A DNA stretch of 33,947 nt from Dehalococcoidia bacterium (lineage in GTDB: Bacteria; Chloroflexota; Dehalococcoidia; SZUA-161; SpSt-899), in NCBI GenBank assembly GCA_023271215.1, contig JALPYG010000006.1, forward strand, positions 1 to 33,947, read 5' to 3'. The notes beneath the pieces are model-generated. The model had not been told where the DNA came from, made no database searches, and worked only from the letters and a program-made list of their open reading frames with translations. The position numbers and the translations under genes were made by a program. This document shows positions 13,717 to 31,846 of this stretch, piece after piece. Positions within the stretch are counted from its first letter, which is position 1. The number at the start of each line of letters is the position of its first letter.

Positions 13717-13742
13717 AGGCTTGGTTCCTTTCCTACTAATAC

Positions 13743-13852
13743 GTAACTATTCAGCCACAGAGCTCACCTAAGGCGGACAGAGCACAATTTAGCGTGTAGG
13801 GGGGTACGGAGACTACCCGCTACTCGTTTCTCTATGAACTCTGTAGCTATCA
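13743..13852. repeat. Mosaic intergenic repeat, copy A
   Basis: Left end gtaactattca + gccacagagctcac, internal tttagcgtgtagg, right end gaactctgtagct (imperfect inverse of the left end). Related to copy B at 24906-25019. Confidence 0.6.
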
Positions 13853-13990
13853 ATCACTGGCTGAGTGATCACTATAATACTATCATTTAACGGAGGCGCT
13901 GGCAAGCGCCAATTGATGAGGGAGGCTACGGGCCAATGATAAGCGCGTATACTCCCACTATTAACCGCCAAAATGGAGAAAACAAAAGTG

Positions 13991-14019
13991 TTGACGAAAG
14001 TACATAAATGTGTTATAGT
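13991..14019 (+). promoter_or_regulatory. Putative promoter of the accessory cluster
   Basis: TTGACG (13991-13996), 17 bp, TATAGT (14014-14019). Located upstream of the ATG at 14038, which is preceded by agggagaatag. Confidence 0.6.
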
Positions 14020-14037
14020 TACAAAGGGAGAATAGAG

Positions 14038-14559
14038 ATGTATCTCATAGTAGCTAAGTACTCTGATGATGCCGAGAGGAAGAGGATAGACTATCTGTTC
14101 GAGAAGTGGAGAGAGAGGATAAAGATAACTAAACCAGAGGGCATGGTCGTTCTGCTGGATGGTGTGGAGGAAAGGGGTCTTGCCGAGATACTTGAAGACC
14201 TCCTCTCCAGAGTGCAAGAGGATAAAATAACCCTCTACAAACTTGAGCATGTTACCACACAGATCGAAAAGAATGAAAAAGAGCTTCGGGCAAGCATCAG
14301 CGGCGACGAAAAAACTATCGGCCGGCTGCTCAATTTCCTTCTGGCCAGGTATAAAGGGGTACTCAAGAGGGAGTCCCCGCAACTCCGGGAAAAGGTCTAC
14401 GAGGTCTACACCAGGAAAGGAATGGCAGAGGTATCCCTGAGGCTTAAGGAAAGCCCCGGCAAGGTAGACATCCGGGTAAGGATAGCCGGGTATGGGGAGG
14501 TGGTGGATTTGCTCCACAACAAGCTCGGTGAGGAGATGAAATACCTCGAGGAGGCGTAA
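14038..14559 (+). CDS. Uncharacterised protein, first gene of the accessory cluster
   Basis: ORF track 14008..14559. ATG 14038 (MYLIVAKYSDDAERK) lies downstream of the predicted -10 and has an RBS. No family recognised. Confidence 0.8.
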   Translation: MYLIVAKYSDDAERKRIDYLFEKWRERIKITKPEGMVVLLDGVEERGLAEILEDLLSRVQEDKITLYKLEHVTTQIEKNEKELRASISGDEKTIGRLLNFLLARYKGVLKRESPQLREKVYEVYTRKGMAEVSLRLKESPGKVDIRVRIAGYGEVVDLLHNKLGEEMKYLEEA

Positions 14560-14560
14560 A

Positions 14561-16459
14561 ATGCGCAGTGAAGTTGACTGGAAAAATCTGGAGGAGATTA
14601 TCAAGCCGGTAGATAGAGTGCTGGACTATGACCTGGAAAGGCTCCGCCGCACTGACGAGGTGAAAAGGATCGGGCTCTGGAACGAGATAGAAAGCAGCCT
14701 TAACTCCTTCGAAGAGGAGTTGTCTCCGACCGTGCCTCGCGACCTGAAGCAGCATTACCTCAGTAAGTTCACCCTGGCCAGGCTTCTCCTCGCCGCCGCT
14801 TCCCACATCAGCGACGAGCGCAGCATTATGATGACGTCCTCCTTCAACGAGAAAGAAATCGCTCTCCTGCAGGACTTTGAAAGATACAATGTCTTCGATA
14901 TCCTGAGCGCGGACGAAATCAGGGAGCGGATAGCCCGGCGAGATGAGCTTTTTACCCTGGTAAGGGAAATCTACGAGAAGCAATACACCGACCTCGATGG
15001 CTTGCTCGATGCCGTGGAAGTCCAGCGGGACCTGAAGCTAGCCTTCAAGAGAAGATATGAAAAGAGGCTGGAGAATATCAAAGAGGGGGTTAAGGCCTAT
15101 GTTGGTAAATATGGCCCGGTGTTCATGGTGCGGCAGATCGAGGAAAAGGTCTGGGAGAAAGTGAAGGAGTCCGAGAGGGAAAGGGAGAGGGTCTCCGCCG
15201 AGATACGAAGGCGGCTGGAGGAATTGGCTGGACGACTCAAGCCGTTACAAAGTGCGGAGGAGGCAAACCAGGCGCTAAAGGAGAAGTTACTCGCCTTTGA
15301 GAGAGCCATACTCGAGGGCTCCTCCCCCGACCTAACCCCCCTTCAGTCCGAAAAGGAGAGGCTGTTCCAGAGCTTTCTCGATCTTGAAAAGGAAATCTCC
15401 GCGCAGGTTGAAGGAATGACCCGGGAGAGAGAAGGGCTCGAGGAGAGGGAAGCGGAACTGGAGAGGCTGGCGGAGGGATACCGTCAGCAGGCGGAGGAGG
15501 AGAGAGAACGTGTGATCCAAAGTGAGCTGGGCGAGCTGGAGAAAATCCGCTCTGAACTTGTCTCACAAGAGCAGTCTCTCCAGGATGAAAAGAGGTCGCT
15601 GGAGGCCGGGAGAGAGGAAATGGAGGAAAGGCTGCGGCAGCTTCGTGAGGTTGCTGAGGGGAGGTACTTGCGCTGGCTTGCCGCCGAGGATGCCCGCCTG
15701 GCCGAGCTGAATTTCCTCTCTCGTTTTGAGGAGAAGATGCACCAGTTCCCCCTGAAGGTCTTCTCTCCAATTGAGAACAAGACCTTCACCGTAAGTTCCT
15801 GGGAAGAAGGCTCTCACCGGCGAATGAGCGAGGCAGAAACCGGCCCGAGCAAGCCTTCAAACGAGAGCTCGCGGTATGTAGTAAGCGAGCGGAAGTACAA
15901 AATCTTTGGCCCGAAATTGCCCCGGGTGATCATCGAGGCCATCTCGCTGAGCCACCTTCGCGAGTTCGATGAATGGGGCTTCGATGTGCGCCCGGCTAAT
16001 CTGGGGGATTTTCTCGGAGTTATCACCCGGCATATAAAGAGCGCCGAAATCGGCCGGCGCCTTCACATCCTTGGCCTTGCCTCCCCCACCGGCTGGGATA
16101 AGAGGGTAACAAGTGAGATAGCCTCTGATTCCTTTGCCCGCAACTATCTCAGCCGCTATGTTTCTGTTTGCCTGGCTGATTCTATCACCGGAGAGGTCTT
16201 TTACAATCCCCTGGACAAACGAATTGCCAATTTTATAGACCATTTCAAGCCCGAATTCAAGGTGGAGACGATAGCTCGTCTGAAGAGAGCGGTGGTGGAG
16301 GAACTGGGGCTTAAGGGCTTTGTTGCCTTTGAGGAATTTGCGAAGGTAGTCGGCGAGCCAAGAAACATGGTACTTAAGGCCTTCTACGACCTTGAAAAGG
16401 AGGTCCATGGTGCGGTAAGATTTATAAAAGATGTCGGGCTTGTGCTGGAAGAAAAATAA
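14561..16459 (+). CDS. Uncharacterised 632 aa protein with long central coiled coil
   Basis: Starts 1 bp after the preceding gene. Long charged heptad-like segment (about residues 190-370) followed by a globular C-terminal region ending in a possible winged-helix (VETIARLKRAVVEELGLKGFVAFEEFAKVVGEPRNMVLKAFYDLEKEV). Confidence 0.85.
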   Translation: MRSEVDWKNLEEIIKPVDRVLDYDLERLRRTDEVKRIGLWNEIESSLNSFEEELSPTVPRDLKQHYLSKFTLARLLLAAASHISDERSIMMTSSFNEKEIALLQDFERYNVFDILSADEIRERIARRDELFTLVREIYEKQYTDLDGLLDAVEVQRDLKLAFKRRYEKRLENIKEGVKAYVGKYGPVFMVRQIEEKVWEKVKESERERERVSAEIRRRLEELAGRLKPLQSAEEANQALKEKLLAFERAILEGSSPDLTPLQSEKERLFQSFLDLEKEISAQVEGMTREREGLEEREAELERLAEGYRQQAEEERERVIQSELGELEKIRSELVSQEQSLQDEKRSLEAGREEMEERLRQLREVAEGRYLRWLAAEDARLAELNFLSRFEEKMHQFPLKVFSPIENKTFTVSSWEEGSHRRMSEAETGPSKPSNESSRYVVSERKYKIFGPKLPRVIIEAISLSHLREFDEWGFDVRPANLGDFLGVITRHIKSAEIGRRLHILGLASPTGWDKRVTSEIASDSFARNYLSRYVSVCLADSITGEVFYNPLDKRIANFIDHFKPEFKVETIARLKRAVVEELGLKGFVAFEEFAKVVGEPRNMVLKAFYDLEKEVHGAVRFIKDVGLVLEEK

Positions 16460-16475
16460 AAAAGGAGGTAAAGCA

Positions 16476-17075
16476 ATGGGGGTAAGAGAATTGATGGAGA
16501 AGATCAGGGGGAATCCCCTGGAGAAGATGAAGGCTCGCGAGCTGAGGGAGGAGGAGATTCGGCTCAAGAACCAGCTTGAGCGGGTGAGGAAGGGAATTGA
16601 TGACAACGAGAAGGAGAAGAAGAAGAAATTCCGCGAGGGGATCGGGGCCGATCTCTTCAAGAAGCGAATGCTGGTCCAGGAGATAGGGGCTCTCGACATG
16701 GAAGCCAAGTTGAAGCTGAGAACTTTCACCACCGCCCACCGCCAGCTCCGGTTCGTGAAGAACTTTCTCATCGTGAAGAACTACGAGCAGCAGCTTAAGG
16801 ATGTAGGGCTCTGGAAGAAGCTCACCGCTATCCCCCAGGCAAACCTGGAGGGCTTCCTCATCAGGATCAGCCTCGACGGGAAAGAGTTTGACGAGGTTCT
16901 TAATGAACTGAACAAGCCCTTTGAGATGGATGTGGCCGAAATCGGGGAAGAGATGGCGGAGGAGGAGAAAAAGATGCTGGAGAGTTGGGCGCAGGTAGAA
17001 GCGGGAGCCCTGGAACCGGAGAAGGCGGAGAGCGAGCTCTCCATAGACCGCGAGCTACAGGAAGAAGAAATATAG
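16476..17075 (+). CDS. Small helical protein, paralog of the 23125 gene; candidate ESCRT-III-like
   Basis: 199 aa from ATG 16476 with RBS aaaggaggt. Shares NPxEKxxxxxLxExExxLK and (F/L)LIVKxxxxxLxxxGxWxxLxxxxxxxLExxLIxxxL with the 193 aa protein at 23125. Confidence 0.75.
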   Translation: MGVRELMEKIRGNPLEKMKARELREEEIRLKNQLERVRKGIDDNEKEKKKKFREGIGADLFKKRMLVQEIGALDMEAKLKLRTFTTAHRQLRFVKNFLIVKNYEQQLKDVGLWKKLTAIPQANLEGFLIRISLDGKEFDEVLNELNKPFEMDVAEIGEEMAEEEKKMLESWAQVEAGALEPEKAESELSIDRELQEEEI

Positions 17076-17090
17076 TATCGGGCAAAAAAT

Positions 17091-17263
17091 AACCGCACTA
17101 TGTCATTGCTCGCCCCGTTAGATATGAAAAATCTAACAGGGCCAGGAGCGTAGCGACGAAGCAATCTCAAGGTAGGATGGGATAAATTGCTTCTCGCGGA
17201 GCCTGTGCTGAGGAACGAAGTGCTCGCAATGACAGGGAAAATTGTGCAACGATTTATGCGGTT
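17091..17263. repeat. REP/MITE-like palindromic intergenic element
   Basis: Nested inverted repeats: AACCGCA (17091) / TGCGGTT (17257), TGTCATTGC (17101) / GCAATGACA (17226), gcaat/attgc inner pair, plus internal GTTAGATatgaaaaATCTAAC. Confidence 0.85.
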
Positions 17264-17343
17264 AACTGCAAATGACTATAGCTTCACATATTTGGGGTGG
17301 GGAATTTACATTCCCAACTAGCAAAAAGGGGAAAGGAGTGAGC

Positions 17344-17607
17344 ATGCTTACAGAATATATAGATAAAGCCATGAGCAAAGCACAATATGAGAAGTTAGAA
17401 GATGGCACCTACTACGGCAAGATCCCGCAGTGCCTGGGTACCATTGCCTTTGGCAAAACACTTTATGAGTGTCAAAATGAGCTGAAGTCGGTTTTGGAAG
17501 GCTGGCTAATAGTCAAGATAAGGCACGACGATCCTCTACCTGTGATTGATGGTTTTGACCTGAATAAAGGAATACCCACTCTAAAGGAAACTGTAGTCCA
17601 TGGCTAG
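17344..17607 (+). CDS. HicB-family antitoxin
   Basis: MLTEYIDKAMSKAQYEKLEDGTYYGKIPQCLGTIAFGKTLYECQNELKSVLEGWLIVKI. HicB-like fold pattern, overlapping the downstream HicA-like gene. Confidence 0.85.
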   Translation: MLTEYIDKAMSKAQYEKLEDGTYYGKIPQCLGTIAFGKTLYECQNELKSVLEGWLIVKIRHDDPLPVIDGFDLNKGIPTLKETVVHG

Positions 17608-17830
17608 ATGGGCACCTTGTAAGAGGCGAGTCTTTATAGGGAAATTGAGGAGACTGGGTTTTGATCCACCTGAACCAGGAGGACGCCACTTCTATATGCG
17701 ATATGGGACATACACTCTGCCTATTCCTAACAATTCTGAATTCTCCGTGCCGCAACTTAAAATTCTCCTTGGAGAAGTGGAGCATGCCTTAGGCAGAGAA
17801 ATCTCTTTACAAGAATGGCAAGGTTTGTGA
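17600..17830 (+). CDS. HicA-family toxin
   Basis: KRRVFIGKLRRLGFDPPEPGGRHFYMRYGTYTLPIPNNSEFSVPQLKILLGEV matches the HicA pattern (GGxH, then a short beta hairpin and helix). Confidence 0.85.
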   Translation: MARWAPCKRRVFIGKLRRLGFDPPEPGGRHFYMRYGTYTLPIPNNSEFSVPQLKILLGEVEHALGREISLQEWQGL

Positions 17831-17847
17831 TTGTCTTACAGAAGGAT

Positions 17848-17985
17848 GGGAGGAGGGGTTTGAGACGATTGAACTCTGCCGGAAGGGGGATGTCCTGCTC
17901 ACTCGTCTCCTCGAAGGGCTCGCCGTTCCTCTCTCGGAGGTCCTTTGAATGTAACCCACGGCGAGGGATTCAAGAATAGGGGGGC
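17848..17985 (+). pseudogene. Duplicated 3' remnant of the Uma2-family gene
   Basis: Nearly identical to 19268-19405 (ggaggggtttgagacgattgaactctgccggaagggggatgtcctgctcactcgtctcctcgaagggctcgccgttcctctctcggaggtc). No 5' part of the gene is present. Confidence 0.88.
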
Positions 17986-18025
17986 ATTTGACAGGATTTA
18001 GGACTAGTTAAAGGAGGGAAATTCC

Positions 18026-18214
18026 ATGAACATATCAAAGTCAAAATTAGAAGCTCTTGTCACAGAACTTCCAGATGAGGCTAATGTTGAAGAGGTTATG
18101 TATCGCCTCTATCTTCTTCAAAAAATAGAGGCAGGTGAATCAGCAATTCAGAAAGGGGAAACTCTTTCACACCAGGATGCAATGGGAAGGTTATCAAACA
18201 AGTGGCAGAAATAA
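18026..18214 (+). CDS. Small antitoxin of a ParE/RelE-type pair
   Basis: 62 aa with RBS aaaggaggg, overlapping by 13 bp the downstream ParE-like toxin gene. Confidence 0.7.
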   Translation: MNISKSKLEALVTELPDEANVEEVMYRLYLLQKIEAGESAIQKGETLSHQDAMGRLSNKWQK

Positions 18215-18501
18215 TCTGGAGTGAAGAGGCCACCTCAGACTTGGAGGATATATACGACTACATTGCGCGCGATTCACCCTGGTACGCTCGCCAGCAAGTA
18301 GAACGTATCGGCAATGTTGCTCAAGGATTACGCCAATCTCCTGAATCAGGCCGTCATCTTCCTGAGTTTCCTCGGCTACCCCACCGGGAGGTGATAGTTG
18401 GAAATTATCGGGTTCTTTACCGTTACGATTCAAAGAATAATGTTGTAAATATAGTATCTGTAGTTCACGGAGCCCGGTTATTAACAAAACCATATGATTA
18501 A
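18202..18501 (+). CDS. ParE/RelE-superfamily toxin
   Basis: 99 aa from GTG. IIWSEEATSDLEDIYDYIARDSPWYARQQVERI...GRHLPEFPRLPHREVIVGNYRVLYRYDSKNNVVNIVSVVHGAR is typical ParE. Confidence 0.92.
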   Translation: MAEIIWSEEATSDLEDIYDYIARDSPWYARQQVERIGNVAQGLRQSPESGRHLPEFPRLPHREVIVGNYRVLYRYDSKNNVVNIVSVVHGARLLTKPYD

Positions 18502-18541
18502 GATAAAAAGCCATCAACCAACAAACCAAAAGGAGGGAGCA

Positions 18542-18762
18542 ATGGAAATAGCACCTGGAGTAGAGGTCAATGAAAAATCCGTTTTGGAAAGCCGGTTGTA
18601 AAAGGAACCAGAGTTCCAGTCGAGTTGATACTTGGAAAGCTGGCTGGGGGGATGGGGTTTCAAGAAGTCATGAGGGAATACGAGATTACGCTTGAGGATA
18701 TACTTGCTGCTCTGGATTATGCCTCAAAAGTCGTGGGACAAGAGCAGATAAAGGTTTACTGA
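18542..18762 (+). pseudogene. Frameshifted DUF433-family antitoxin
   Basis: ATG frame reads MEIAPGVEVNEKSVLESRL*. After a -1 correction at the aaaaa run it reads (I)RFGKPVVKGTRVPVELILGKLAGGMGFQEVMREYEITLEDILAALDYASKVVGQEQIKVY*. Confidence 0.85.
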
Positions 18763-18819
18763 GCAGAATGACAACTATCGTCATAGATTTAAGCAGCCTG
18801 GATAACGGAGGTGATCTCG

Positions 18820-19368
18820 ATGGCGGAAGTAGGAATCAAATTTACCGTGGAGGACTACAAGAACCTCCCCGAATCGGAGACCAAACGCTATGAACTTCTA
18901 GGAGGAGAACTGGTTATGGTTCCGTCACCAAGTGAAGCCCATCAGTCCATCTCAAGGAATTTACTATTCCTGCTCTGGAAGTTCGTTCGAGACAATGCCC
19001 TCGGAGTTGTTTACCATGCTCCCTTCGATATCGTCTTCAGCGAGGAGGATATAGCCCAGCCGGACCTTATCTACATCTCGAATGAGAGGAGAGGAATCAT
19101 CACCCCTGATGACGTTCGGGGTGCTCCCGATCTGGTGATCGAAATCCTCTCGCCCTCGACGGCAGGAAGAGACCGGACCTACAAGAAGACGCTTTACGCC
19201 CGACATGGAGTTAAAGAATACTGGATCGTTGACCCGCAGGAGAAGACGGTGGAGGTAATGTCTCTCGGGGAGGAGGGGTTTGAGACGATTGAACTCTGCC
19301 GGAAGGGGGATGTCCTGCTCACTCGTCTCCTCGAAGGGCTCGCCGTTCCTCTCTCGGAGGTCTTTTGA
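18820..19368 (+). CDS. Uma2-family (DUF820) putative restriction-endonuclease-fold protein
   Basis: YKNLPESETKRYELLGGELVMVPSPSEAHQSISRNL...DIAQPDLIYISNER...GAPDLVIEILSPSTAGRDRTYKKTLYARHGVKEYWIVDPQEKTVEV. Confidence 0.93.
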   Translation: MAEVGIKFTVEDYKNLPESETKRYELLGGELVMVPSPSEAHQSISRNLLFLLWKFVRDNALGVVYHAPFDIVFSEEDIAQPDLIYISNERRGIITPDDVRGAPDLVIEILSPSTAGRDRTYKKTLYARHGVKEYWIVDPQEKTVEVMSLGEEGFETIELCRKGDVLLTRLLEGLAVPLSEVF

Positions 19369-19462
19369 ATCTAACCCACAGCGAGGCATTCAAAAATAGC
19401 GGGTGTCATTTGACGGCATTACTTCGAAACGATCGCAAAAGTATTATACGAGGAGGGGGTCA

Positions 19463-22400
19463 ATGTCCAAAGTGAAAGTTCTAGCTACTGTGCTGGCAGT
19501 GATAGTCCTCCTGCCCCTCCCCACCGCCGCCTTTGCCCAGTCGATCCCTCCCGCCGTCTTTTATGGCACGGCGTATGTGGATAATGTGCCAGTCGCCGGA
19601 GCGACCGTTTCCGGCTGGATAGATGGGGTGAATGTGGCCGAAACCACCACTGCGGGTGATGGGAGCTATTACCTCAAAGTTGAGGGTAATTTCCATGGCA
19701 AGACCGTCTTCTTCAAGGTAGCCGGCTACGATGCTCTTGAAACTGCCACCTGGGAGATAGGGAGGATCGTTTTGCTGGATCTCCATGCCACCACAGGTCC
19801 TACCCCACCTGACACCGACGGCGACAACGTGCCCGATAGTAAGGACTTATTCCCAAACTACGACGCCTACCTGCTAGTAGCGATAAAGTACTTCAAGGAG
19901 ACAAAAGCGGCAGACCTGATCGGGTACGGTGACCCTTACTTCATCATCGACGTAGATGGGGACAGATGGATGAGCAGCAAACCCGCTTTCGGCGACGTTG
20001 CCAGTGCTACGGACCCTTACTCAGTGACGGTGAATATTGCTGACGACCAAAGGTGGCTTGATATTCACATAGAGGCGTGGGACTATGACGGCGGCTGGAC
20101 AGCCGACGAGCAATACGACATTAGCGAAGACCCAGATTCTATTGTGCTGTCGGCAAAGCTAGATGTCCTGGAATTGATGGGCGAGGGGCTTAGCATCACC
20201 AGTGACGGAGCTAAGGACGGTGGTCTCCGAGGACCGCAAGCGAAAATTATCATACTTCTGCAGGTTCATCCGATTGATACCTGGATTCCTTATACTCCTT
20301 CCCCAGATGCACTGCAGATCGAAATTATCCCCGCCGAGGTTTTGCCAGGTCCACGGCAGGCTAAAGTCACTTTTTCCCCTGGGCTGGGTGTAGAAGTTAA
20401 GGACTGGGGCTCGATTAAAAGAGAAGGAAACGTCTTCTCTGTGGATGCAGTTATTCAACAGTATACGGGCATCGTAATACTGCTGCCTCACGAACCCGAA
20501 ACGCACATCTATGAATTAGGGATAATTCAACCTGGCGACTACAAATTCAGATTCTATGCCAACGGGAATTTTGTAAAGGAAGAGCCTTTCGTGGTTGACC
20601 CAGGAACGGGTTCATTACTCATCACCTCCGAGCCCCCAGGGGCGGAGGTCTATCTTGACGACGACTTCCGCGGGCGCGCGCCTCTAATCATAGAAGAACT
20701 GGAGCCCGGTTCTTACGAGTTAGAGGTTACCCTTGAAGGGTATGAAGACTGGGAGAAAAGGGTTGTGGTAAAAGCTGGCAAGATTACTTCTGTATTGGCT
20801 GAATTGACAGCCTTGCCACCACCTCACCCCGCTGAGTTCACCACGACTGACCTGACGATAACCCCTGAAGAGGTCTTTACCGGGGAGGAGGTAATCATCA
20901 GCGCCATGGTCGCCAACATCGGTGAGCTTGCCGGCACGCACCAGGTAATCCTGAAGATCGATGATGTGGTAGAGGCTAGCGAGGAAGTAACCCTCGATGG
21001 CGGTGCCAGCCGGAAGGTGGCCTTTACCGTAACCAGGGACGTTGCCGCAAGCTACAGCGTAGATGTTGGTGGCCTCATGGGGACATTTGTAGTCCGAGCA
21101 GTACCGCCACCTCCTCCGCCTCCTTCACCCGGCGTTACCGATATAACTGACGTTATCACCCCTGATGGGGTATTTATTGATGACGTTATTGCTGAGTCTT
21201 TCGACGGGTTAGTCCATCTCACCATAGATCAAGGCACTATTGGTCTGATCAACGGAAAGCCCCTTGCTGAGATAGTAATGGTGGAGATGCAAGCCCCACC
21301 ACCCCCACCTGAGGATACCGAGATTATCGGGTTAGTCTATGACGCTGGGCCTGACGGAGCTACCTTCAACCCACCAACAACCCTTACCTTTACTTATGAC
21401 CCCGCCCTTATACCTGAGGGAGTTGCTGAAGAGAACTTGGTTATCGCCTTGTTGGACATTGACGCTGGTGAGTGGGTTGAGCTAGTTTCCATTGTTGACC
21501 CGGTGGCCAACATAATAACCACTCAGGTAAGCCACTTCACAGCTTTCACTATCCTGGCCCCATTACCGATGCCAGCACCAACTCCCCTGATACCGCCAGG
21601 ACTCCTGCTACCGCTAATTGGAACCTTAATCGCTGGTGCTCTGGCCCTCTTCGCGGTGATGATGGTGAGGAGAAAACCAAAGAAGAAAACCCCACCCGAG
21701 CACCCTGAAGACGAGGTTCCGCCCAGGGGAGATGAACCCCCGCCCTACTTCCCGGAGAAGCTTCTTCCCTTTTACGACCCGATAAGGCTTCTGGGGCGGG
21801 GAGGATTTGCCCGGGTGTTCGAGGTGATAAGAAAAAAAGACGGGCTTGGAGTTGCCCTTAAAGTCCCTCTCGACCCCGAAGACCCCGCCATCAAGGAGTC
21901 CTTCCGGGGGGAAATGGGGAACTGGCAGAGGCTGAAACATGGGAACATCATCCAACTTCGTGAGTTTGCAACGGTGCCTCTTCCTTTCCTGGAGATGGAG
22001 CTTGGCGAAGAGAGTCTGGAGCGGCTCAAGAAACCCCTTGAGCCTGATAAAGCGGCCCGGCTGATCTTCGAGGTGGGAAGGGGATTGGAATATGCCCACC
22101 GGCAGAGCGTCGTTCACCGGGACCTCAAGCCCTCAAACATTCTCCTTAAGGAAGGAATCCCTAAAATCTCCGACTGGGGCCTGAGCCGGGTGAAAACCGA
22201 GAGCCGCACCAGCTCAAGCAAGTCCCTCTCCCCTCCTTACTCCGCGCCGGAGCAACACTCCCCCAGGAAATTCGGCGGGGTGGATGAGCGCACCGACATC
22301 TTCCAGTTGGGTATCGTTCTATACGAGCTGGCTACGGGAAAACTCCCCTTTGAAGGTGCGGAATACTTTGAGATAGTCTCAGCCATCCAGCTTGAAGAGC

Positions 22401-23011
22401 CGGTAGTTCCTTCAATTCCCAATCCGGAAGCCTCCCGCCTCGAGCCGGTTATCCTCAAATGCCTTCGGAAGGAGAAGGAAGAGAGATACCAGAGCGTCCG
22501 GGAACTGCGGAAGGACCTGGCCGATTTCCTGCGGCGGGAATACGGGATTAAGCTCACTCTAAGCCGTGACTCCCAGAATTTCAAAGCGGCCGTCGGCCAC
22601 AGCGCCGACCTGGCCCTAATTTCTGCTGAGCAGGGGGACTTTCGGGACATGGAAAGACGCCTCAAGGAAGTTGAGGAGCTTGCCCGACACGGCTTTCCGG
22701 AGAAGCTGGCCGCCTCAGTCCTTCACTCCATGGAAGCCATCTTTGATCTCCAGAGGCTTTGTTACGAGGAAAGAGAAAAACGGGTGCGGTATGGCGAGGT
22801 GAAGCAGCAATATAAGGTCCTTTGCGAATTCCTCTCCTCGGCGAAGTTTGACGAGGAGGTAGAGAGCGACCCGGACCTCGGCGGGATTTTCAAGCACTTT
22901 GATCTGCTTTACGAGGAGGATGACCTGCTGGATTACGAGGGGGTAGAAAGACTCAAATTCTTCTGCTCCAAGCTTATCAAGAAATGGCAGGCATTTTTCC
23001 TTCGCCGGTGA
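19463..23011 (+). CDS. Receptor-type Ser/Thr protein kinase with multi-domain ectodomain (PEGA, CARDB-like) and one TM segment
   Basis: ATG 19463 with RBS aggaggggg. Signal peptide VKVLATVLAVIVLLPLPTAAFAQ. PEGA domain (GSLLITSEPPGAEVYLDDDFRGRAPLIIEELEPGSYELEVTLEGYEDWEKRV). TM LLLPLIGTLIAGALALFAVMMVRRKPKKK. Kinase motifs LLGRGGFARVFEV, VALKVP, VVHRDLKPSNILL, ISDWGLSRV, SAPEQ. Confidence 0.9.
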   Translation: MSKVKVLATVLAVIVLLPLPTAAFAQSIPPAVFYGTAYVDNVPVAGATVSGWIDGVNVAETTTAGDGSYYLKVEGNFHGKTVFFKVAGYDALETATWEIGRIVLLDLHATTGPTPPDTDGDNVPDSKDLFPNYDAYLLVAIKYFKETKAADLIGYGDPYFIIDVDGDRWMSSKPAFGDVASATDPYSVTVNIADDQRWLDIHIEAWDYDGGWTADEQYDISEDPDSIVLSAKLDVLELMGEGLSITSDGAKDGGLRGPQAKIIILLQVHPIDTWIPYTPSPDALQIEIIPAEVLPGPRQAKVTFSPGLGVEVKDWGSIKREGNVFSVDAVIQQYTGIVILLPHEPETHIYELGIIQPGDYKFRFYANGNFVKEEPFVVDPGTGSLLITSEPPGAEVYLDDDFRGRAPLIIEELEPGSYELEVTLEGYEDWEKRVVVKAGKITSVLAELTALPPPHPAEFTTTDLTITPEEVFTGEEVIISAMVANIGELAGTHQVILKIDDVVEASEEVTLDGGASRKVAFTVTRDVAASYSVDVGGLMGTFVVRAVPPPPPPPSPGVTDITDVITPDGVFIDDVIAESFDGLVHLTIDQGTIGLINGKPLAEIVMVEMQAPPPPPEDTEIIGLVYDAGPDGATFNPPTTLTFTYDPALIPEGVAEENLVIALLDIDAGEWVELVSIVDPVANIITTQVSHFTAFTILAPLPMPAPTPLIPPGLLLPLIGTLIAGALALFAVMMVRRKPKKKTPPEHPEDEVPPRGDEPPPYFPEKLLPFYDPIRLLGRGGFARVFEVIRKKDGLGVALKVPLDPEDPAIKESFRGEMGNWQRLKHGNIIQLREFATVPLPFLEMELGEESLERLKKPLEPDKAARLIFEVGRGLEYAHRQSVVHRDLKPSNILLKEGIPKISDWGLSRVKTESRTSSSKSLSPPYSAPEQHSPRKFGGVDERTDIFQLGIVLYELATGKLPFEGAEYFEIVSAIQLEEPVVPSIPNPEASRLEPVILKCLRKEKEERYQSVRELRKDLADFLRREYGIKLTLSRDSQNFKAAVGHSADLALISAEQGDFRDMERRLKEVEELARHGFPEKLAASVLHSMEAIFDLQRLCYEEREKRVRYGEVKQQYKVLCEFLSSAKFDEEVESDPDLGGIFKHFDLLYEEDDLLDYEGVERLKFFCSKLIKKWQAFFLRR

Positions 23012-23124
23012 GAAGGGAGAGGTCGCTGGGCGAGTTCTTAGCCTCGTCCTGAAGCGGCCTCAAAGGGTTGCGCTACGGATTCATGACGGATAATCTGGGA
23101 CAAATTCTTATGAGGAGGTAAACT

Positions 23125-23706
23125 GTGGCTTTGCTGAGTATCTTTCGTAAGAACCCGATCGAGAAGCTGAGCCGGGACAAGTTGAAGGAGATGGAACTCC
23201 GGCTGAAGGTGAAGTCGGGGAAGCTCACGGCGGAGGTAGCCGAGATAGAGGCGCAGGTGCAGCAGCTCTTCCAGAAGAGTAAGGAGGCCAAAAGCCGGCT
23301 GGAGGAGATTAGCCTGGCCAATCGCATAAAGACCCTGGCCCAGAAGAAGGACATGAAAGGGGCCGCCCACGCCGACCTGGAGAAGGAGATCCGGGCAGTG
23401 AGCAACCTGCTGATAGTCAAAGAGCATCAGGCCGACCTCCAGGCCGCCGGTGTCTGGGAACCGCTGCAGAAAGTTGCTCCGGAGGAACTTGAGAAATACC
23501 TCATTGAGATGAAGCTGAAGGCTGAAGACCGCCAGGGAACGGTGAGAATGGCCACCGACCTCACCTCCTCCATGCTCAAGCCGGCTGTTGAGCATGAGGA
23601 AGGGCTGGAGGACATCCTGGCGGTGATGCGGGAGGTGAGGGAAGGCAAACTCGAGCCCGAAGATGCCGGGAAGATGGTGACTGAGGAAAAAGAGCAGGAG
23701 GAATAA
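23125..23706 (+). CDS. Small helical protein, candidate ESCRT-III-like; paralog of the 16476 gene
   Basis: 193 aa from GTG with RBS gaggaggt. MALLSIFRKNPIEKLSRDKLKEMELRL followed by an all-helical charged body. Adjacent to MIT-AAA ATPase. Confidence 0.75.
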   Translation: MALLSIFRKNPIEKLSRDKLKEMELRLKVKSGKLTAEVAEIEAQVQQLFQKSKEAKSRLEEISLANRIKTLAQKKDMKGAAHADLEKEIRAVSNLLIVKEHQADLQAAGVWEPLQKVAPEELEKYLIEMKLKAEDRQGTVRMATDLTSSMLKPAVEHEEGLEDILAVMREVREGKLEPEDAGKMVTEEKEQEE

Positions 23707-23707
23707 G

Positions 23708-24871
23708 ATGCCAGTAGACCTCAGCGGCCCACTGCGAAGCGAGTTTGAGAAGGCCAGAGAAGCCTATGAGAAGGCCCGGGGAGAGGGGAATTCACAGCGG
23801 GCGTCGGAGCAGGCAGCTAAATGTGCCCGCCTCCTGCGTCTCCTGGCCGACAATATCCCCCATGAGCACCGCTTCTATTTGGACAAGTCAAAGAAATGGG
23901 AAGACCTGGCCCGGTCTATAAAGGAGAAGGGGCTCAGGGAACCCCGTGAGCCGGAAGGGGATGTGAGGCCCCCTGGGCTGGAATTCAGGGACTACATCGA
24001 GGGCCTTATATCAATCTCTGAGGTCACCTGGGCGGATATCGGAGGACTGGAGGAACCCAAGAGGCTGCTTCAGGAGACGGTGGTCATCGCCGCCATGAAA
24101 AGGCCGGAGGCCATCAAGCCCTGGACCGGGATCCTCCTCTACGGCCCTCCGGGGACGGGGAAAACCCTGCTGGCAGCGGCCGCTGCCGGAAGCCTGAAGG
24201 CCACCTTCTTCAACATCTCGGCGGACAAGGTCCTCTCGAAATACTTCGGCGAGTCCTCTCGCCTTATCGCCGCCCTTTATGAGGTTGCCCTGGAGAGGTC
24301 CCCGGCGATAGTCTTCATTGATGAGATGGACGCTCTGACCCTCTCCCGGGGAGGAGATTCAAACGAGGCCTCCCGGCGGACCCTATCCACCCTGCTTTCT
24401 CAGATTGACGGATTCAAGAGCAAGAAGTCCCAGCGCCTGGTGCTCACCCTGGCCGCTACCAACACGCCCTGGGACATGGACACCGCTGCCCTGAGCCGTT
24501 TCTCTCGCCGGATTCACATCCCCCTCCCCGGCGCCGGGGACGCCGTGAAGATCGTAAAGCTAAACACCAGCGGACTGGACACTTCACAGGTCGACCTCAA
24601 CTCCGTTGCCCGGGAGTGCCACGCAGGGCTTTTCTCCGGCAGAGAGATAGCTTATCTCTGTCAGGAAGCAGTGTGGAACATGATACGACAGGAGAACCCC
24701 AATCTGGCTCAGCTCTCCCCCCTTTCCTTCGACGAACTACGCGGCAAGACCCTCAAGACAAGAGCATTGAAGAACTCCGATTTTCACGCCGCTCTGGGGA
24801 AGATCAAGCCGCCACTCAGCCAGGCGAGGCTGGCAAAATACAGCCAATGGGCCAGTGATTTTGGCGGGTAG
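23708..24871 (+). CDS. Vps4/katanin-type AAA ATPase with MIT-like N-terminal region (AAA-1)
   Basis: 387 aa. Helical N-terminus, then VTWADIGGLEEPKRLLQETVV, Walker A GPPGTGKTLLA, pore region DKVLSKYFGESS, Walker B IVFIDEMDAL, ALSRFSRRIHIPLPG, C-terminal LSQARLAKYSQWASDFGG. Confidence 0.9.
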   Translation: MPVDLSGPLRSEFEKAREAYEKARGEGNSQRASEQAAKCARLLRLLADNIPHEHRFYLDKSKKWEDLARSIKEKGLREPREPEGDVRPPGLEFRDYIEGLISISEVTWADIGGLEEPKRLLQETVVIAAMKRPEAIKPWTGILLYGPPGTGKTLLAAAAAGSLKATFFNISADKVLSKYFGESSRLIAALYEVALERSPAIVFIDEMDALTLSRGGDSNEASRRTLSTLLSQIDGFKSKKSQRLVLTLAATNTPWDMDTAALSRFSRRIHIPLPGAGDAVKIVKLNTSGLDTSQVDLNSVARECHAGLFSGREIAYLCQEAVWNMIRQENPNLAQLSPLSFDELRGKTLKTRALKNSDFHAALGKIKPPLSQARLAKYSQWASDFGG

Positions 24872-24905
24872 CATGAGGTTCCCCTGTTAATTTATCCCTT
24901 CCCAG

Positions 24906-25019
24906 TTTAGCGTGTAGCGCATAGCGTGTAGGGAGTAGGGAGGATACACGCTACCTACTACCCCTTACACCCTACCTGGTTCTTTGTGGGCTCTGTGGCT
25001 AGACCGGGTGAATAGTTAC
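24906..25019. repeat. Mosaic intergenic repeat, copy B
   Basis: tttagcgtgtag (24906-24917), TAGCGTGTA/TACACGCTA inverted repeat (24922-24930 / 24945-24953), gtgggctctgtggct (24986-25000), tgaatagttac (25009-25019). The last two are inverse of copy A's left end. Confidence 0.6.
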
Positions 25020-25040
25020 CTTATGAGAAAGGAGGAATCC

Positions 25041-25640
25041 ATGCCGGGATTTTTCGAGAGAAGACACCAGACGAAGGAGATCGAAAGGGAGGTCAAGTTC
25101 AAACAGGGGCTGTCCCGTGTGCGTAACTACGTGCAGAAGTGCAACCAGGCTCAGAAAAGGTACTGGGAGCTGGGCAAGCGGGCACTCAAGCTTGGGGATA
25201 GGCAGCAGTTTGAAAACATCGTCAAAGCCTATCTCCGCACAGGGGAGATGGTCAACCGCTGGGAGCGCTATTCGGTGGCAATGGAGACGATCTCATTGCA
25301 ACGAGACCAGGTCAAGGCCACCGGTACATTCGCCGAGTCTATGAAAGCCCTGAGTGCCTCCATGATGGCCGGTGCCAAACCGGAGGATATTACTAAAATG
25401 CAGATGGACCTTGAGCAAGCCTTGACCAGGGCCGAGACGCTGGATGAAACCCTGTCCGCCATCATGGATAGCACCAGCGACACCATTTTCTCTGCAGAGG
25501 GTCTGTCTGAGGAGTCTTTGCAAGAGGTAGAGGCCGCGATGAAGGGCGAGGCAGCGCATGAAGAGGGGCAAGCCCTGGACGACCGGATTGCTGCCGGGCT
25601 GCGCCGCATCGAGGAAGAGATGAGGAAGGAAATGAAATGA
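25041..25640 (+). CDS. Snf7/ESCRT-III-like protein
   Basis: 199 aa from ATG 25041 with RBS aaaggagg. Short hydrophobic/basic N-terminus (MPGFFERRHQTKEIERE) and a helical hairpin. ALKLGDRQQFENIVKAYLRTGEMVNRWERYSVAMETISLQRDQVKATGTFAESMKALSASM then PEDITKMQMDLEQALTRAETLDETLSAIMD follows the Snf7 helix pattern. Acidic linker and MIM1-like tail DDRIAAGLRRIE. Confidence 0.72.
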   Translation: MPGFFERRHQTKEIEREVKFKQGLSRVRNYVQKCNQAQKRYWELGKRALKLGDRQQFENIVKAYLRTGEMVNRWERYSVAMETISLQRDQVKATGTFAESMKALSASMMAGAKPEDITKMQMDLEQALTRAETLDETLSAIMDSTSDTIFSAEGLSEESLQEVEAAMKGEAAHEEGQALDDRIAAGLRRIEEEMRKEMK

Positions 25641-25641
25641 G

Positions 25642-26751
25642 ATGAGATTTGCATTGGAGAAGAGTGCCGAACACTTAGAAAATGGCCTTAAGCTGGAACA
25701 GGACGGAGACCTCAAGGGAGCTAGATACAACCTTCTCAAGGCCGGCGAGTTCTTGTTCAAGGCAGCGGAGAAATCCGAACTCTCTCTCAAGGCAAAGCGC
25801 ATCGAGCGGGCAGAGAGCATCCTGAAGCGGGCTGAGGCCATAGGTCAGATGCTGGCCGGGAGATCCACATCGCGAGTGGTTCCCCAGGCTGAGAGTGCTG
25901 AGTCGGCGCCGGAGTGGATGATCGTTGAGAAGCCAAACCTGAGATTGAGCGATGTGGCAGGCCTGGAGGAAGTCAAGGAGCAGATCAGGATACGGATGAT
26001 CTATCCCTTCACTCATCCTGAGCAGGCCAGGCGCTTCGGGATAAAGAAAGGGGGCGGCATCCTGCTTTACGGCCCTCCAGGGACGGGGAAGACCATGCTG
26101 GCCAGGGCCGTGGCCGGGGAGATCGATGCGGCCTTTTTCACTGTCAAGCCCTCAGAGATTATGAGCAAGTGGGTTGGCGAGGCGGAGCAGAACATCGCCA
26201 GACTGTTCTCCGAGGCCAGGAAGCATGAGAGGGCAGTGATCTTCATCGACGAAGTGGAGTCGCTAATTCCCAGGCGCAGGGATAGTCATTCCACGGTGAT
26301 GCAGCGGGTGGTGCCCCAGATCCTCTCCGAGATGGAGGGGTTTGCCAGCGGCAGGGAGGGTGAAAAGGCGCTGCTTTTTATGGGGGCCACCAATGAACCC
26401 TGGGCGATGGACGAAGCGGTGCTCCGGCCGGGACGCTTCGATGAAAGGGTGTATGTTCCTCTTCCCAACTTCGATGCCCGGCTTGAGATCTTGCATTTTC
26501 ATTTGAAGGATAAGCCCCTTTCGCCGGACATCTCTCTGGAGGAAATTGCTCAAATGCTGGAAGGCTACAGCGGGGCTGACATCCGCCGCATCGGTGAGAA
26601 AGCCTGCGACATCCCCTTCGTCGAGTCCGTCAGAACCGGCGAGGAACGGGATGTGCAAAGGCAAGACCTGTTGAGCGTGATGCAGCAGGTGAAGCCTTCG
26701 GTTTCGGCAAAGGCGTTGGAGAAATTTCAGAGGTTTTGCTTTGGAAGATAG
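25642..26751 (+). CDS. Vps4-like AAA ATPase with MIT-like N-terminal domain (AAA-2)
   Basis: 369 aa, adjacent to the Snf7-like gene. MIT-like ALEKSAEHLENGLKLEQDGDLKGARYNLLKAGEFLFKAAEKSELSLKAKRIERAESILKRAEAI, then LSDVAGLEEVKEQIRIRMIYP, GPPGTGKTMLAR, SEIMSKWVGEAEQNI, VIFIDEVESLIPRR, RPGRFDERVYVPLPN. Confidence 0.92.
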   Translation: MRFALEKSAEHLENGLKLEQDGDLKGARYNLLKAGEFLFKAAEKSELSLKAKRIERAESILKRAEAIGQMLAGRSTSRVVPQAESAESAPEWMIVEKPNLRLSDVAGLEEVKEQIRIRMIYPFTHPEQARRFGIKKGGGILLYGPPGTGKTMLARAVAGEIDAAFFTVKPSEIMSKWVGEAEQNIARLFSEARKHERAVIFIDEVESLIPRRRDSHSTVMQRVVPQILSEMEGFASGREGEKALLFMGATNEPWAMDEAVLRPGRFDERVYVPLPNFDARLEILHFHLKDKPLSPDISLEEIAQMLEGYSGADIRRIGEKACDIPFVESVRTGEERDVQRQDLLSVMQQVKPSVSAKALEKFQRFCFGR

Positions 26752-26808
26752 ATAAGACTCATTACTCTGGGGAAAGTGCTAAGATTATAAAAACGGGAGG
26801 TAAGAGAA

Positions 26809-27042
26809 ATGCAGGGTATGGAACTTATAGCACACGTAGAACAGAAGCCAGAGGTGCTCTGTGGGAAGCCAGTGATAAAAGGCACCAGAATTTCAGTGGA
26901 ACTGATATTAGAGCGGCTGGCGAACGGGGCAAGCTTTGAACAACTCACAGGGGATTACGACATCTCTGAAGAGGATGTAACAGCAGCCCTCTTATACGCC
27001 AGGCAGGTGCTATCGGAGGAGGAAATACTTGAGACTGTCTGA
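26809..27042 (+). CDS. DUF433-family antitoxin
   Basis: 77 aa. VEQKPEVLCGKPVIKGTRISVELILERLANGASFEQLTGDYDISEEDVTAALLYAR. Overlaps the start of the downstream ORF, as in DUF433-DUF5615 pairs. Confidence 0.92.
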   Translation: MQGMELIAHVEQKPEVLCGKPVIKGTRISVELILERLANGASFEQLTGDYDISEEDVTAALLYARQVLSEEEILETV

Positions 27043-28525
27043 GAAGTTGAAGCTCCTGGCAGACGAGAATGTCCCCCGGCCTCTGGTTCATTTGCTGAGG
27101 TCAAGAGATATTGACACCAGATGGGTGAGGGAAATCGAGAGAGGGATGTCAGATGAAGCGGTGGTGGGGATTCAGATCATGGAGGAGGCTGAGGCGATAT
27201 TGAATAAGGGAGAGTTCTATCCGGCCAAAGAGAATTATCGCAGAGCTCAGGAGCATTTTGAGAATCTCCGTGACTTCGCCGTTGAGCACCGATTGGAGAG
27301 GGAGAAAAGCGAGATTGACAACTTGATAGAGGATTGCACCGCAAACATCAGGGTATGCACCGACTCATTGTTGGGCAGACAAAGAGTGGCCACAGCCAGG
27401 GTGAGGAAGGTGGATGATCTGAGAAAAGGGATCAGGGTGAAAACAGGGGTAAAGCGCCCGGGTGAAGATAAGTTGAGCAAGCTTGAAAAGGCTTATCCCT
27501 CGATAAGATATCTGGACTCCGGCGGCTTTGGAGAGGTATACTGGGCTCAAACCCGGGAGGGACAAACGATCGCCCTAAAAGTCCTCCGGGAACCCGAAAG
27601 ACATGAGGAAACGTACTTCAAGGAATTAGCGATATGGAGAAACCTCGTCCACCGCAATATCGTCAAATTACTGCGCCCAAAATACCATCCCATGCCCCTT
27701 TTTGAGATGGAATACGTGGATGGAGGCGACCTCAGCAGCCTGCTTAAAGAAAGCGCCCCCTTTTCCCCGGAGAGAGCCTGCCGGATAGCCTTTGACATTG
27801 GCAGAGGCCTCGAGTGCGCTCACTTGTCAAATGCTGTTCACGGCGACCTCAAGCCGCGCAACATACTCCTTACGATGACGGAAGAGGTGAAAATAAGCGA
27901 TTGGGGGCTAGGGAAGGTTGCCACCAGTTCCAGCAGGGGCGTGGGCTATACGCCGGGCTATGCTTCCCCGGAGCAAATTCAGAAAGTGGCGATTGACAAA
28001 AAATCAGATGTGTACCAGATCGGGGTGGTATTCTACGAGATGTTGACCGGCGATAACCCCTTTGATCATGGTTCGCGTGAGGAGAAAGATGAAAAGGTGT
28101 TGACCCTTGTTCCGCAGGAGCCCAGCAAGCACAATCCCAGGATTAAACCGCTTGATGATTTGGTCATGAGCTGTCTCGAAAAGGAATCCGGAAACAGGCC
28201 GGGGATACGGGAATTCAGAGAGGCTTTGAGCGGATATGTAAAGGAGAACTACGGCATTCTACTCAAAGTAACGGGGCAACCCAGAGATAAGTTAGGCATC
28301 CTGTGCCGGAATGCCATGTTTGCGGCCAAGCTAAATGACCACAAAGAGTGTGTGGCGGCCCTTAAGGACTTGAGGTCTCTCCTGAGCGAGAATGAACTAA
28401 AGGACATAGTGCGGAATTTGATGTACGCCACGGAACTCAGGCAGAAAGAGGAATTGGAGATAACAGACGAGGTCCTCAATGAAATTGACGGTGTGCTGAG
28501 GCAGGTGGAATATGGACAATCTTGA
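27029..28525 (+). CDS. Ser/Thr protein kinase with N-terminal DUF5615 (PIN-like) fragment and MIT-like region
   Basis: Reads from TTG: LKLLADENVPRPLVHLLRSRDIDTRWVREIERGMSDEAVVG (DUF5615 start), then QIMEEAEAILNKGEFYPAKENYRRAQEHFENLRDFAVEHRLEREKSEIDNLIED (MIT/TPR-like), then kinase LDSGGFGEVYWA, IALKVL, AVHGDLKPRNILL, ISDWGLGKV, ASPEQ. Internal ATG at 27179 is an alternative kinase start. Confidence 0.85.
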   Translation: MRLSEKLKLLADENVPRPLVHLLRSRDIDTRWVREIERGMSDEAVVGIQIMEEAEAILNKGEFYPAKENYRRAQEHFENLRDFAVEHRLEREKSEIDNLIEDCTANIRVCTDSLLGRQRVATARVRKVDDLRKGIRVKTGVKRPGEDKLSKLEKAYPSIRYLDSGGFGEVYWAQTREGQTIALKVLREPERHEETYFKELAIWRNLVHRNIVKLLRPKYHPMPLFEMEYVDGGDLSSLLKESAPFSPERACRIAFDIGRGLECAHLSNAVHGDLKPRNILLTMTEEVKISDWGLGKVATSSSRGVGYTPGYASPEQIQKVAIDKKSDVYQIGVVFYEMLTGDNPFDHGSREEKDEKVLTLVPQEPSKHNPRIKPLDDLVMSCLEKESGNRPGIREFREALSGYVKENYGILLKVTGQPRDKLGILCRNAMFAAKLNDHKECVAALKDLRSLLSENELKDIVRNLMYATELRQKEELEITDEVLNEIDGVLRQVEYGQS

Positions 28526-29246
28526 GATATGCTGCAAAACTGATATGGGAAGAAAAAAAAGCGCCAACGAGGATAGCCTGCTCGTCGTGAAGTTGGGCGA
28601 GGTTTATCTCCTGGCAGTCGCCGATGGACTGGGGGGACACGCTGCAGGCGAAGTCGCCAGCAGACTGGCTTTGATAGAGATCGAGGAATTCCTGAAGACA
28701 AACCTGGCTGAAGGGAACCTCCGGGACGCAATGCAGGGAGCCATTGCCAAGGCAAACCGTGAGATTTGTTTGCTCTCAAAAGAAAACCCCGCTTATGCGG
28801 GTATGGGCACCACACTGGTCGCCGCCCTTGTTTTTGATAACCGGGCGCTCATAGCCAACATTGGCGATAGCCGGGCGTATCTTATAGGAAACGGAATAAG
28901 GCAGATAACGAGGGATCACTCACTGGTTCAAGAACTGGTTGATAGGGAAGTGATCGCTGCGGAAGAAGCCTTCGACCATCCACAGAGGAACATCGTCACC
29001 AGGACGCTCGGTATGGAAAGCGAGGTCTCTCCTGATTTCTATGATGAGGAGCTTTCGGGAAGGCTTCTGCTCCTCTGCTCAGATGGTCTGAGTGATTTGC
29101 TGAGAGACCAGGAGATTTTAGAAACCGTAGTTGCTTCCCCAAACCTGGATGAAGCTTGCACCAGGCTAATCAACCGGGTGAATGAGAAGGGCGGGAAGGA
29201 CAACATCACCGTCGTTTTGGCCAGAGAGGATGGGTTGGATGTCTGA
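28512..29246 (+). CDS. PP2C-family Ser/Thr protein phosphatase
   Basis: 244 aa. TDMGRKKSANEDSLLV, LLAVADGLGGHAAGEVAS, ANIGDSRAYLIG, LLLLCSDGLSDLL and KGGKDNITVVLAR. Start overlaps the end of the kinase gene. Confidence 0.95.
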   Translation: MDNLEICCKTDMGRKKSANEDSLLVVKLGEVYLLAVADGLGGHAAGEVASRLALIEIEEFLKTNLAEGNLRDAMQGAIAKANREICLLSKENPAYAGMGTTLVAALVFDNRALIANIGDSRAYLIGNGIRQITRDHSLVQELVDREVIAAEEAFDHPQRNIVTRTLGMESEVSPDFYDEELSGRLLLLCSDGLSDLLRDQEILETVVASPNLDEACTRLINRVNEKGGKDNITVVLAREDGLDV

Positions 29247-29287
29247 TAGAATGTTAGCGATCAAGAGCGGCATCTGAGGAGGTCTCT

Positions 29288-30616: not shown

Positions 30617-30656
30617 TTGGTGACGGCGGGGAGTCCGGTTGATAAGGAGAGCACGG

Positions 30657-31820: not shown

Positions 31821-31846
31821 CTTTTGCGTAAGGCCGGAGGAACATC

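Follow-up and report, generated by a model that had tools for sequence, protein, structure and literature searches.

The DNA analysed here, a window of 33,947 nucleotides of contig JALPYG010000006.1 (assembly GCA_023271215.1), comes from the chromosome of a bacterium of the Dehalococcoidia (Chloroflexota). Between positions 14038 and 29246 it carries a cluster of plus-strand genes specifying a Snf7-like protein and two Vps4-type ATPases, the pairing that typifies the endosomal sorting complex required for transport (ESCRT), together with two kinases and a phosphatase. The cluster opens with genes for a 173-residue protein (14038–14559), the counterpart of archaeal arCOG08177 by position and by homology to the first gene of an archaeal locus, and a 632-residue protein (14561–16459), the likely counterpart of arCOG09748 (ESCRT-II-like winged helix). 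These are followed by a 199-residue helical protein A (16476–17075), which has a Thermococcus homologue and is a candidate filament subunit paired with the first ATPase; a membrane receptor Ser/Thr kinase (19403–23011); a 193-residue helical protein B (23125–23706), assigned by homology, with protein A, to what is here called the A2 family; the ATPase AAA-1 (23708–24871); the 199-residue Snf7/ESCRT-III-like protein (25041–25640); a second ATPase, AAA-2 (25642–26751); a cytosolic Ser/Thr kinase (27029–28525); and an Stp1-type PP2C phosphatase (28512–29246). All of the genes named in an earlier reading of the sequence alone (the original prediction) exist, in the order and on the strand given there. 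The run is broken at about 17.1–19.4 kb, between the gene for protein A and that for the receptor kinase, by inserted toxin-antitoxin (TA)-type genes (UPF0150-like, ParE and Uma2 by Pfam; 17344–19368, plus strand) which lie outside the system. The cluster is far more than a chance assemblage: related Chloroflexota have the same set of genes, and an archaeal plasmid carries it almost in this order.

Snf7-like protein and Vps4-type ATPases

The product of 25041–25640 is a member of the Snf7/ESCRT-III family. It scores 26.7 bits (E=5.1e-6) against the Pfam Snf7 profile PF03357, the cut-off being 27.3. The genome scan gave it 27.5 bits; an orthologue with 82% identity lies over the cut-off (E=1.1e-7, 32.1 bits), and the profile is matched by six of the seven members of the family. 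The PspA_IM30 profile matched neither the protein nor its family at E values up to 1, which contradicts membership of PspA. When profiles of the family were run against 177,635 sequences of the PDB, CdvB was the first of three weak matches to one of them and the only match to the last; an early profile (A1) had given only weak matches to CdvB and flagellin.

The AlphaFold2 (AF2) model of the protein (pLDDT 84) has helices at residues 5–51, 54–108, 114–151, 157–167 and 177–198, so that the predicted structure shows the long hairpin of helices 1 and 2 followed by shorter helices 3–5 expected of ESCRT-III. The N-terminal half is basic and the C-terminal half acidic (charge +8 / +2 / -13), an asymmetry of ESCRT-III type which is conserved. 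Twenty residues before the end lies a MIM1-like motif, DDRIAAGLRRI. A tail of the form [DE]xxIxxG[LI]xx[IV] is present in all six Snf7-like proteins encoded with AAA-2 and absent from both of those encoded without it (Chlorohelix and Thermococcus); as a post hoc pattern in six related sequences, this tracking of AAA-2 is suggestive.

Both ATPases belong to the Vps4/katanin/spastin clade. Maximum-likelihood trees place both of them, together with a third paralogue, in one group with Vps4, katanin, spastin and CdvC (support 99/94; 93/94 with another sampling), with Cdc48, PAN and FtsH apart from them. The Vps4, spastin, katanin, PAN and CdvC references were PDB chains, remembered sequences having served only as bait to retrieve them. 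A CdvC profile gave 233 bits with AAA-2, and 223–257 bits across AAA-2 and its orthologues, spanning both the MIT and the AAA regions, while bacterial Cdc48 proteins reached at most 178. The Vps4_C helix (PF09336; cut-off 21.3) was found in AAA-1 (25.8 bits) and AAA-2 (22.5 bits). An identity as Cdc48, PAN or FtsH is overturned by the tree and the CdvC profile, despite a raw phmmer ranking that puts Cdc48 first because the scores of its two domains are summed.

The N-terminus of AAA-2 (residues 2–71) is modelled by AF2 as a three-helix bundle (pLDDT 90) with the fold of a MIT domain. Most of the top Foldseek matches to this model, with TM-scores of 0.73–0.80, are MIT domains, from human VPS4B, VPS4A and MITD1 and from yeast Vps4, an archaeal Vps4 MIT being included; the best of them superpose with a root-mean-square deviation of 1.0–1.5 Å. 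A paralogue of AAA-2 matches the MIT profile PF04212 at 3.5e-4, under the cut-off. The N-terminus of AAA-1 gave no match to Pfam MIT; its hhalign comparison with the AAA-2 MIT profile (probability 84%, E 7.6e-6) suggests a MIT-like region. Of the checks that the original prediction had proposed, two on these proteins came out in its favour: PF03357 is matched by the 25041–25640 protein and its family, and the AAA domains fall with Vps4, katanin and CdvC, away from Cdc48, PAN and FtsH. Its proposal of MIT-like N-termini for both ATPases holds for AAA-2 by the modelled fold and is suggested for AAA-1 by the profile match.

Other components and their archaeal counterparts

The closest known arrangement is on plasmid NZ_CP014751.1 of Thermococcus peptonophilus, archaea having been sampled through plasmids. 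Its locus starts with a 172-aa protein and a 607-aa protein with coiled coil and winged helix; the helical proteins of 198 and 201 aa come next, then the kinase, the AAA ATPase, the PP2C and the Snf7-like protein. All eight genes, including those for the three helical proteins, have a homologue in the window in near-identical order. Among 72,556 plasmids the best match to AAA-1 is the T. peptonophilus ATPase (54.5% identity over the full length, 7e-118), and the Snf7-like protein matches only Chlorohelix and Thermococcus, the Thermococcus homologue itself also matching Snf7. In the same set the T. peptonophilus 198-aa protein is the sole match to protein A (51% identity, E=2e-52). Protein A, like the Snf7-like protein, has a basic N-terminal and an acidic C-terminal half. 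Protein B is 40% identical to the 201-aa protein of T. peptonophilus, and its homologues adjoin AAA-1 in Candidatus Chlorohelix allophototropha and in G448, a Dehalococcoidia genome from another family. By their sequences the two A2 proteins belong to a separate conserved helical family of archaea and bacteria, to which no ESCRT-III assignment is given. The original prediction had put forward three small helical proteins as ESCRT-III candidates; the Snf7 match sustains this for the product of 25041, whereas those of 16476 and 23125 are without detectable similarity to Snf7.

The 14038–14559 protein is 28% identical over its full length to the 172-aa protein of T. peptonophilus and 27% to a 174-aa protein of Halomicrobium, each of the three being encoded upstream of a protein of about 600 aa. 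In archaea arCOG08177 combines a Cas2-like N-terminus with a TBP-like domain (PMC10936438). The 632-aa protein has a helical, coiled-coil N-terminal part, a globular centre and an apparent C-terminal winged helix, and in tblastn against the plasmids it matched archaea only (Halarchaeum, 4e-21; Halomicrobium, 9e-19; Thermococcus, 2e-14). Its C-terminal half is shared with a 427-aa gene product of G448. The arCOG09748 and arCOG08177 labels were assigned from architecture, homology and gene order following PMC10936438.

The receptor kinase, recognised by Pfam, hydropathy and homology, probably starts at about 19463. It has hydrophobic segments at residues 19–49 (N-terminal transmembrane (TM) segment or signal) and 728–757 (TM), with PEGA and CARDB (Ig-like) domains outside, before the kinase domain, and a helical C-terminus. 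Its kinase part is 51% identical to the kinase of the T. peptonophilus ESCRT locus. The second kinase has no TM segment by hydropathy, carries a helical region ahead of its Pfam kinase domain and is 35% identical to the T. peptonophilus kinase. Its open reading frame begins with a remnant of DUF5615 (27029–27170), and its N-terminus has probably been rearranged, to judge from the sequence. A homologue in the congener G002 (L010:6296-8551) has 751 residues, with a long helical N-terminus where the window gene has DUF5615. The phosphatase matches NCBIfam NF033484 over the cut-off (264 bits) and shares 48% identity with the PP2C of T. peptonophilus across 159 aa.

The 'Main' ESCRT systems of archaea comprise Vps4, ESCRT-III, arCOG09748 (helical, coiled coil, globular and winged-helix parts), arCOG08177, a membrane Ser/Thr kinase with Ig-like repeats and a Ser/Thr phosphatase, and are interpreted as vesicle or sorting machines (Makarova et al., mBio 2024, PMC10936438). 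By homology to the Thermococcus and haloarchaeal loci the window has Vps4, ESCRT-III, arCOG09748-type and arCOG08177-type genes, and it too has a membrane Ser/Thr kinase with Ig-like repeats and a Ser/Thr phosphatase. It differs from the archaeal systems in its bacterial host, the additional ATPase AAA-2, which bears a MIT domain and is coupled to the Snf7-like gene, the second kinase, the large PEGA/CARDB ectodomain of the receptor kinase and the TA insertion. With archaeal CdvB/CdvC it shares the MIT and AAA architecture, the CdvC profile matching over nearly the full length, and the weak selection of CdvB by the Snf7-like profiles; unlike that system, it has no cdvA seen in the window, a winged helix on a separate protein, kinases and a phosphatase, and a host that retains FtsZ. 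The likeness to bacterial PspA/Vipp1 is at the level of the superfamily, a helical protein of ESCRT-III type in a bacterium, the window protein differing in its profile matches and in having a MIT-Vps4 partner, which PspA/Vipp1 lack.

It is probable that the cluster is a bacterial copy of the archaeal Main-type ESCRT, which a Dehalococcoidia lineage keeps on its chromosome as an accessory locus and to which a second ESCRT-III/Vps4 pair has been added. The ESCRT (Snf7-Vps4) system is stated in the literature to be confined to archaea and eukaryotes; a bacterium that encodes a Snf7-MIT-Vps4 pair along with the remaining parts of the archaeal system contradicts this. Bacterial Vps4-like ATPases have been reported and attributed to archaeal transfer (Ravi et al. 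2024, PMC11237479); there an unrelated TPR/6TM gene takes the place of snf7, in contrast to the window, which encodes Snf7 and Vps4 side by side. No report of a Snf7-Vps4 pair in Chloroflexota was found in the full-text literature, a scope outside which subscription papers and preprints fall. Within that searchable literature, what is new is the presence in Bacteria and the added second Snf7-MIT-ATPase pair. The original prediction named no described bacterial system with this composition; the composition itself was already known from the archaeal Main ESCRT (PMC10936438).

Recurrence, host and mobility

The window has the Snf7-like gene next to the MIT-AAA gene, and so does a second locus of the same genome, where the order is PP2C-Snf7-Vps4. 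The pair is present as well in the congeners G001, G002 and G003, and hence in four genomes of the genus. G448, which is 94% complete, has an intact Snf7-AAA-2 pair on C259, a pair split by an insertion on C5 and, on C70, the AAA-1 module (A2 helical proteins plus AAA-1) with a gene of the 14561 type. The closed plasmid NZ_CP128401.1 of Candidatus Chlorohelix allophototropha carries the AAA-1 module and, next to FHA genes, a gene of the Snf7-like type. Around these the plasmid encodes numerous Ser/Thr kinases, FHA proteins and beta-propeller proteins, which may represent an expanded ESCRT/kinase region in this phototroph, an organism kept in enrichment culture. Searches detected the system in five of 294 genomes of the class and two of 400 of the phylum. 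Alignment-based searches reached distant copies that a single-sequence search of 60 relatives had missed, and bacterial phyla beyond Chloroflexota were sampled by a single stringent pattern scan. The neighbourhood survey suggested in the original prediction revealed strong conservation, in related genomes and on an archaeal plasmid. Its central inference, an ESCRT-III-Vps4 pair of archaeal or eukaryotic style in a bacterium together with kinases and a phosphatase, is supported by the Snf7 match, the MIT fold, the AAA trees and this neighbourhood.

A further locus in G002 (L011, G002:C129, 2753-9048) encodes a third AAA protein of the Vps4 clade, 418 aa long, with a helical protein of A2 type (209 aa); next come a transglutaminase/CDC48_N protein and an SPFH (band-7) protein with a zinc ribbon. 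SPFH proteins occur in archaeal ESCRT loci too (PMC10936438).

The contig also bears bacterial secDF, rsmH, ftsA, ftsZ, aroH (AroH), a CCA-adding-type tRNA nucleotidyltransferase gene and DHODH; about 5 kb separate the cluster from ftsZ. A gene on the left flank has orthologues 72–95% identical elsewhere in the genus and family, among them in the family members G006 and G007. In eight Dehalococcoidia genomes (G000, G001-G004, G006, G007 and G448) no MurA exceeded the cut-off, the best match having 111 bits against a cut-off of 393, while MurA is present in the Chlorohelix genome. The matches of about 110 bits are likely to be EPSP synthase; ftsZ, ftsA and rsmH are nonetheless present in these bacteria.

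In the tree of AAA-1 the window and G448 sequences are sister to Thermococcus (97/87), with the haloarchaea next and Chlorohelix outside; in an approximately unbiased (AU) test a single bacterial clade was not rejected (p=0.078). The tree suggests transfer between archaea and Chloroflexota, which may have taken place more than once or have been followed by loss. In the congener G003 position 13742 is joined to 31852, with 98% identity beyond, across 115 bp (L099, G003:C13, 1883-1997), and therefore an 18-kb stretch with the cluster (13743–31851) is present or absent between close relatives. The junction includes 32 bp matching window positions 29230–29261, a scar which hints at loss. A pair of subunits of the HgdB/BcrC-type 2-hydroxyacyl-CoA dehydratase/double-cubane reductase, encoded at 29288–31820 between the cluster and a PD-(D/E)XK gene, is likewise missing from the G003 site. 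With archaeal and bacterial copies on plasmids, the system appears able to move between domains, which bears on the use of ESCRT as a marker of the archaeal ancestry of eukaryotes.

Function and rival explanations

In the mechanism proposed, the receptor kinase, which spans the envelope, would together with the cytosolic kinase sense the state of the membrane or envelope and phosphorylate either the filament subunits or the winged-helix adaptor. Polymerisation of the Snf7-like protein, alone or jointly with the two A2 proteins, would take place at the cytoplasmic membrane, on its inner face; hexamers of AAA-1 and AAA-2 would bind the tails of the subunits by MIT-MIM contacts and pull the subunits out, so driving constriction, budding or repair, and the PP2C would reset the system. 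Polymerisation and membrane action are expected from the Snf7-like protein, and phospho-control from a gene content that includes kinases, one with a PEGA/CARDB ectodomain, and a PP2C. The system would serve vesicle formation, sorting or repair, not division. Since no MurA exceeded the cut-off, a murein wall may not oppose budding in these Dehalococcoidia. The chances seem to us evenly balanced that a working phospho-regulated ESCRT, with a second Snf7/Vps4 pair coupled through MIT and MIM1, buds or repairs membranes in Chloroflexota apparently without MurA-dependent murein, and that the system is one of three domains, spread partly by plasmids. Through this locus the role of the archaeal Main-type ESCRT, which is poorly understood, can be studied in a bacterium.

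Several observations weigh against reading the cluster as an ESCRT system. Foldseek returned nothing at E<0.001 for the Snf7-like model, CHMP1B (probability 0.92) and CdvB (0.95) ranking beside BAR domains, an uninformative outcome that may be expected of such an elongated helical shape. The MIM1-like motif has G in place of the canonical R and was defined after inspection. Neither A2 protein matches the Snf7 profile, and hhalign gives them a probability of 1% against the Snf7-like family; the MIT-like assignment of AAA-1 comes from the profile match alone; and most Chloroflexota lack the system. A machine for protein remodelling or signalling/conflict, gated by kinases and acting off membranes, its ESCRT ancestry real and its function moved, would account for the many kinases, the patchy presence, the TA genes inside, the FHA and kinase genes beside the Chlorohelix copy and the two of three helical proteins not recognisable as ESCRT-III. 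We regard this as rather unlikely, as the co-encoded pairs keep the MIT domain and the MIM1-like tail, the ESCRT-III charge asymmetry is conserved and the archaeal counterparts are interpreted as vesicle or sorting systems (PMC10936438). A main role in cell division, like that of CdvABC in TACK archaea, would fit the proximity of ftsZ, the presence of ftsA and rsmH on the contig and the close relationship of AAA-2 to CdvC. It is nevertheless quite improbable because ftsA and ftsZ are on the same contig and G003 is without the locus at this site; nor was the AAA-1 module found in G003, though that genome is incomplete and keeps another Snf7-Vps4 pair.

The two remaining explanations concern origin. 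PspA and ESCRT-III share a common ancestor (PMC8281802) and AAA ATPases neighbour some bacterial PspA genes (PMC11237479), so that a home-grown PspA/Vipp1-type protein with a Cdc48-type ATPase might have converged on an ESCRT-like organisation; with Snf7 matched instead of PspA_IM30, the AAA domains placed with Vps4 and katanin and off bacterial Cdc48, and the other components matching proteins of archaeal ESCRT loci, this is scarcely credible. Mis-binning or mis-assembly of archaeal DNA into the bacterial genome is suggested by the state of the latter, a metagenome-assembled genome 68% complete, and by the tetranucleotides of the cluster, which are nearer to those of the Thermococcus plasmid (r 0.86) than the tetranucleotides of the left flank are (0.64), a comparison confounded by shared coding content. 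Against it stand the bacterial secDF, rsmH, ftsA, ftsZ and aroH genes of the contig, the flank orthologues in G006 and G007, the recurrence of the pair in G448 as well as in four members of the genus, and the Snf7-like gene and AAA-1 module on the complete Chlorohelix plasmid. Contamination was rejected on the evidence of the contig genes, the flank orthologues and the plasmid copy, and we consider it extremely improbable.

The TA-type insert holds, in addition to the genes named above, a short open reading frame after the UPF0150-like gene which has no Pfam match. The 3' end of Uma2 is nearly copied at about 17.84–17.95 kb.

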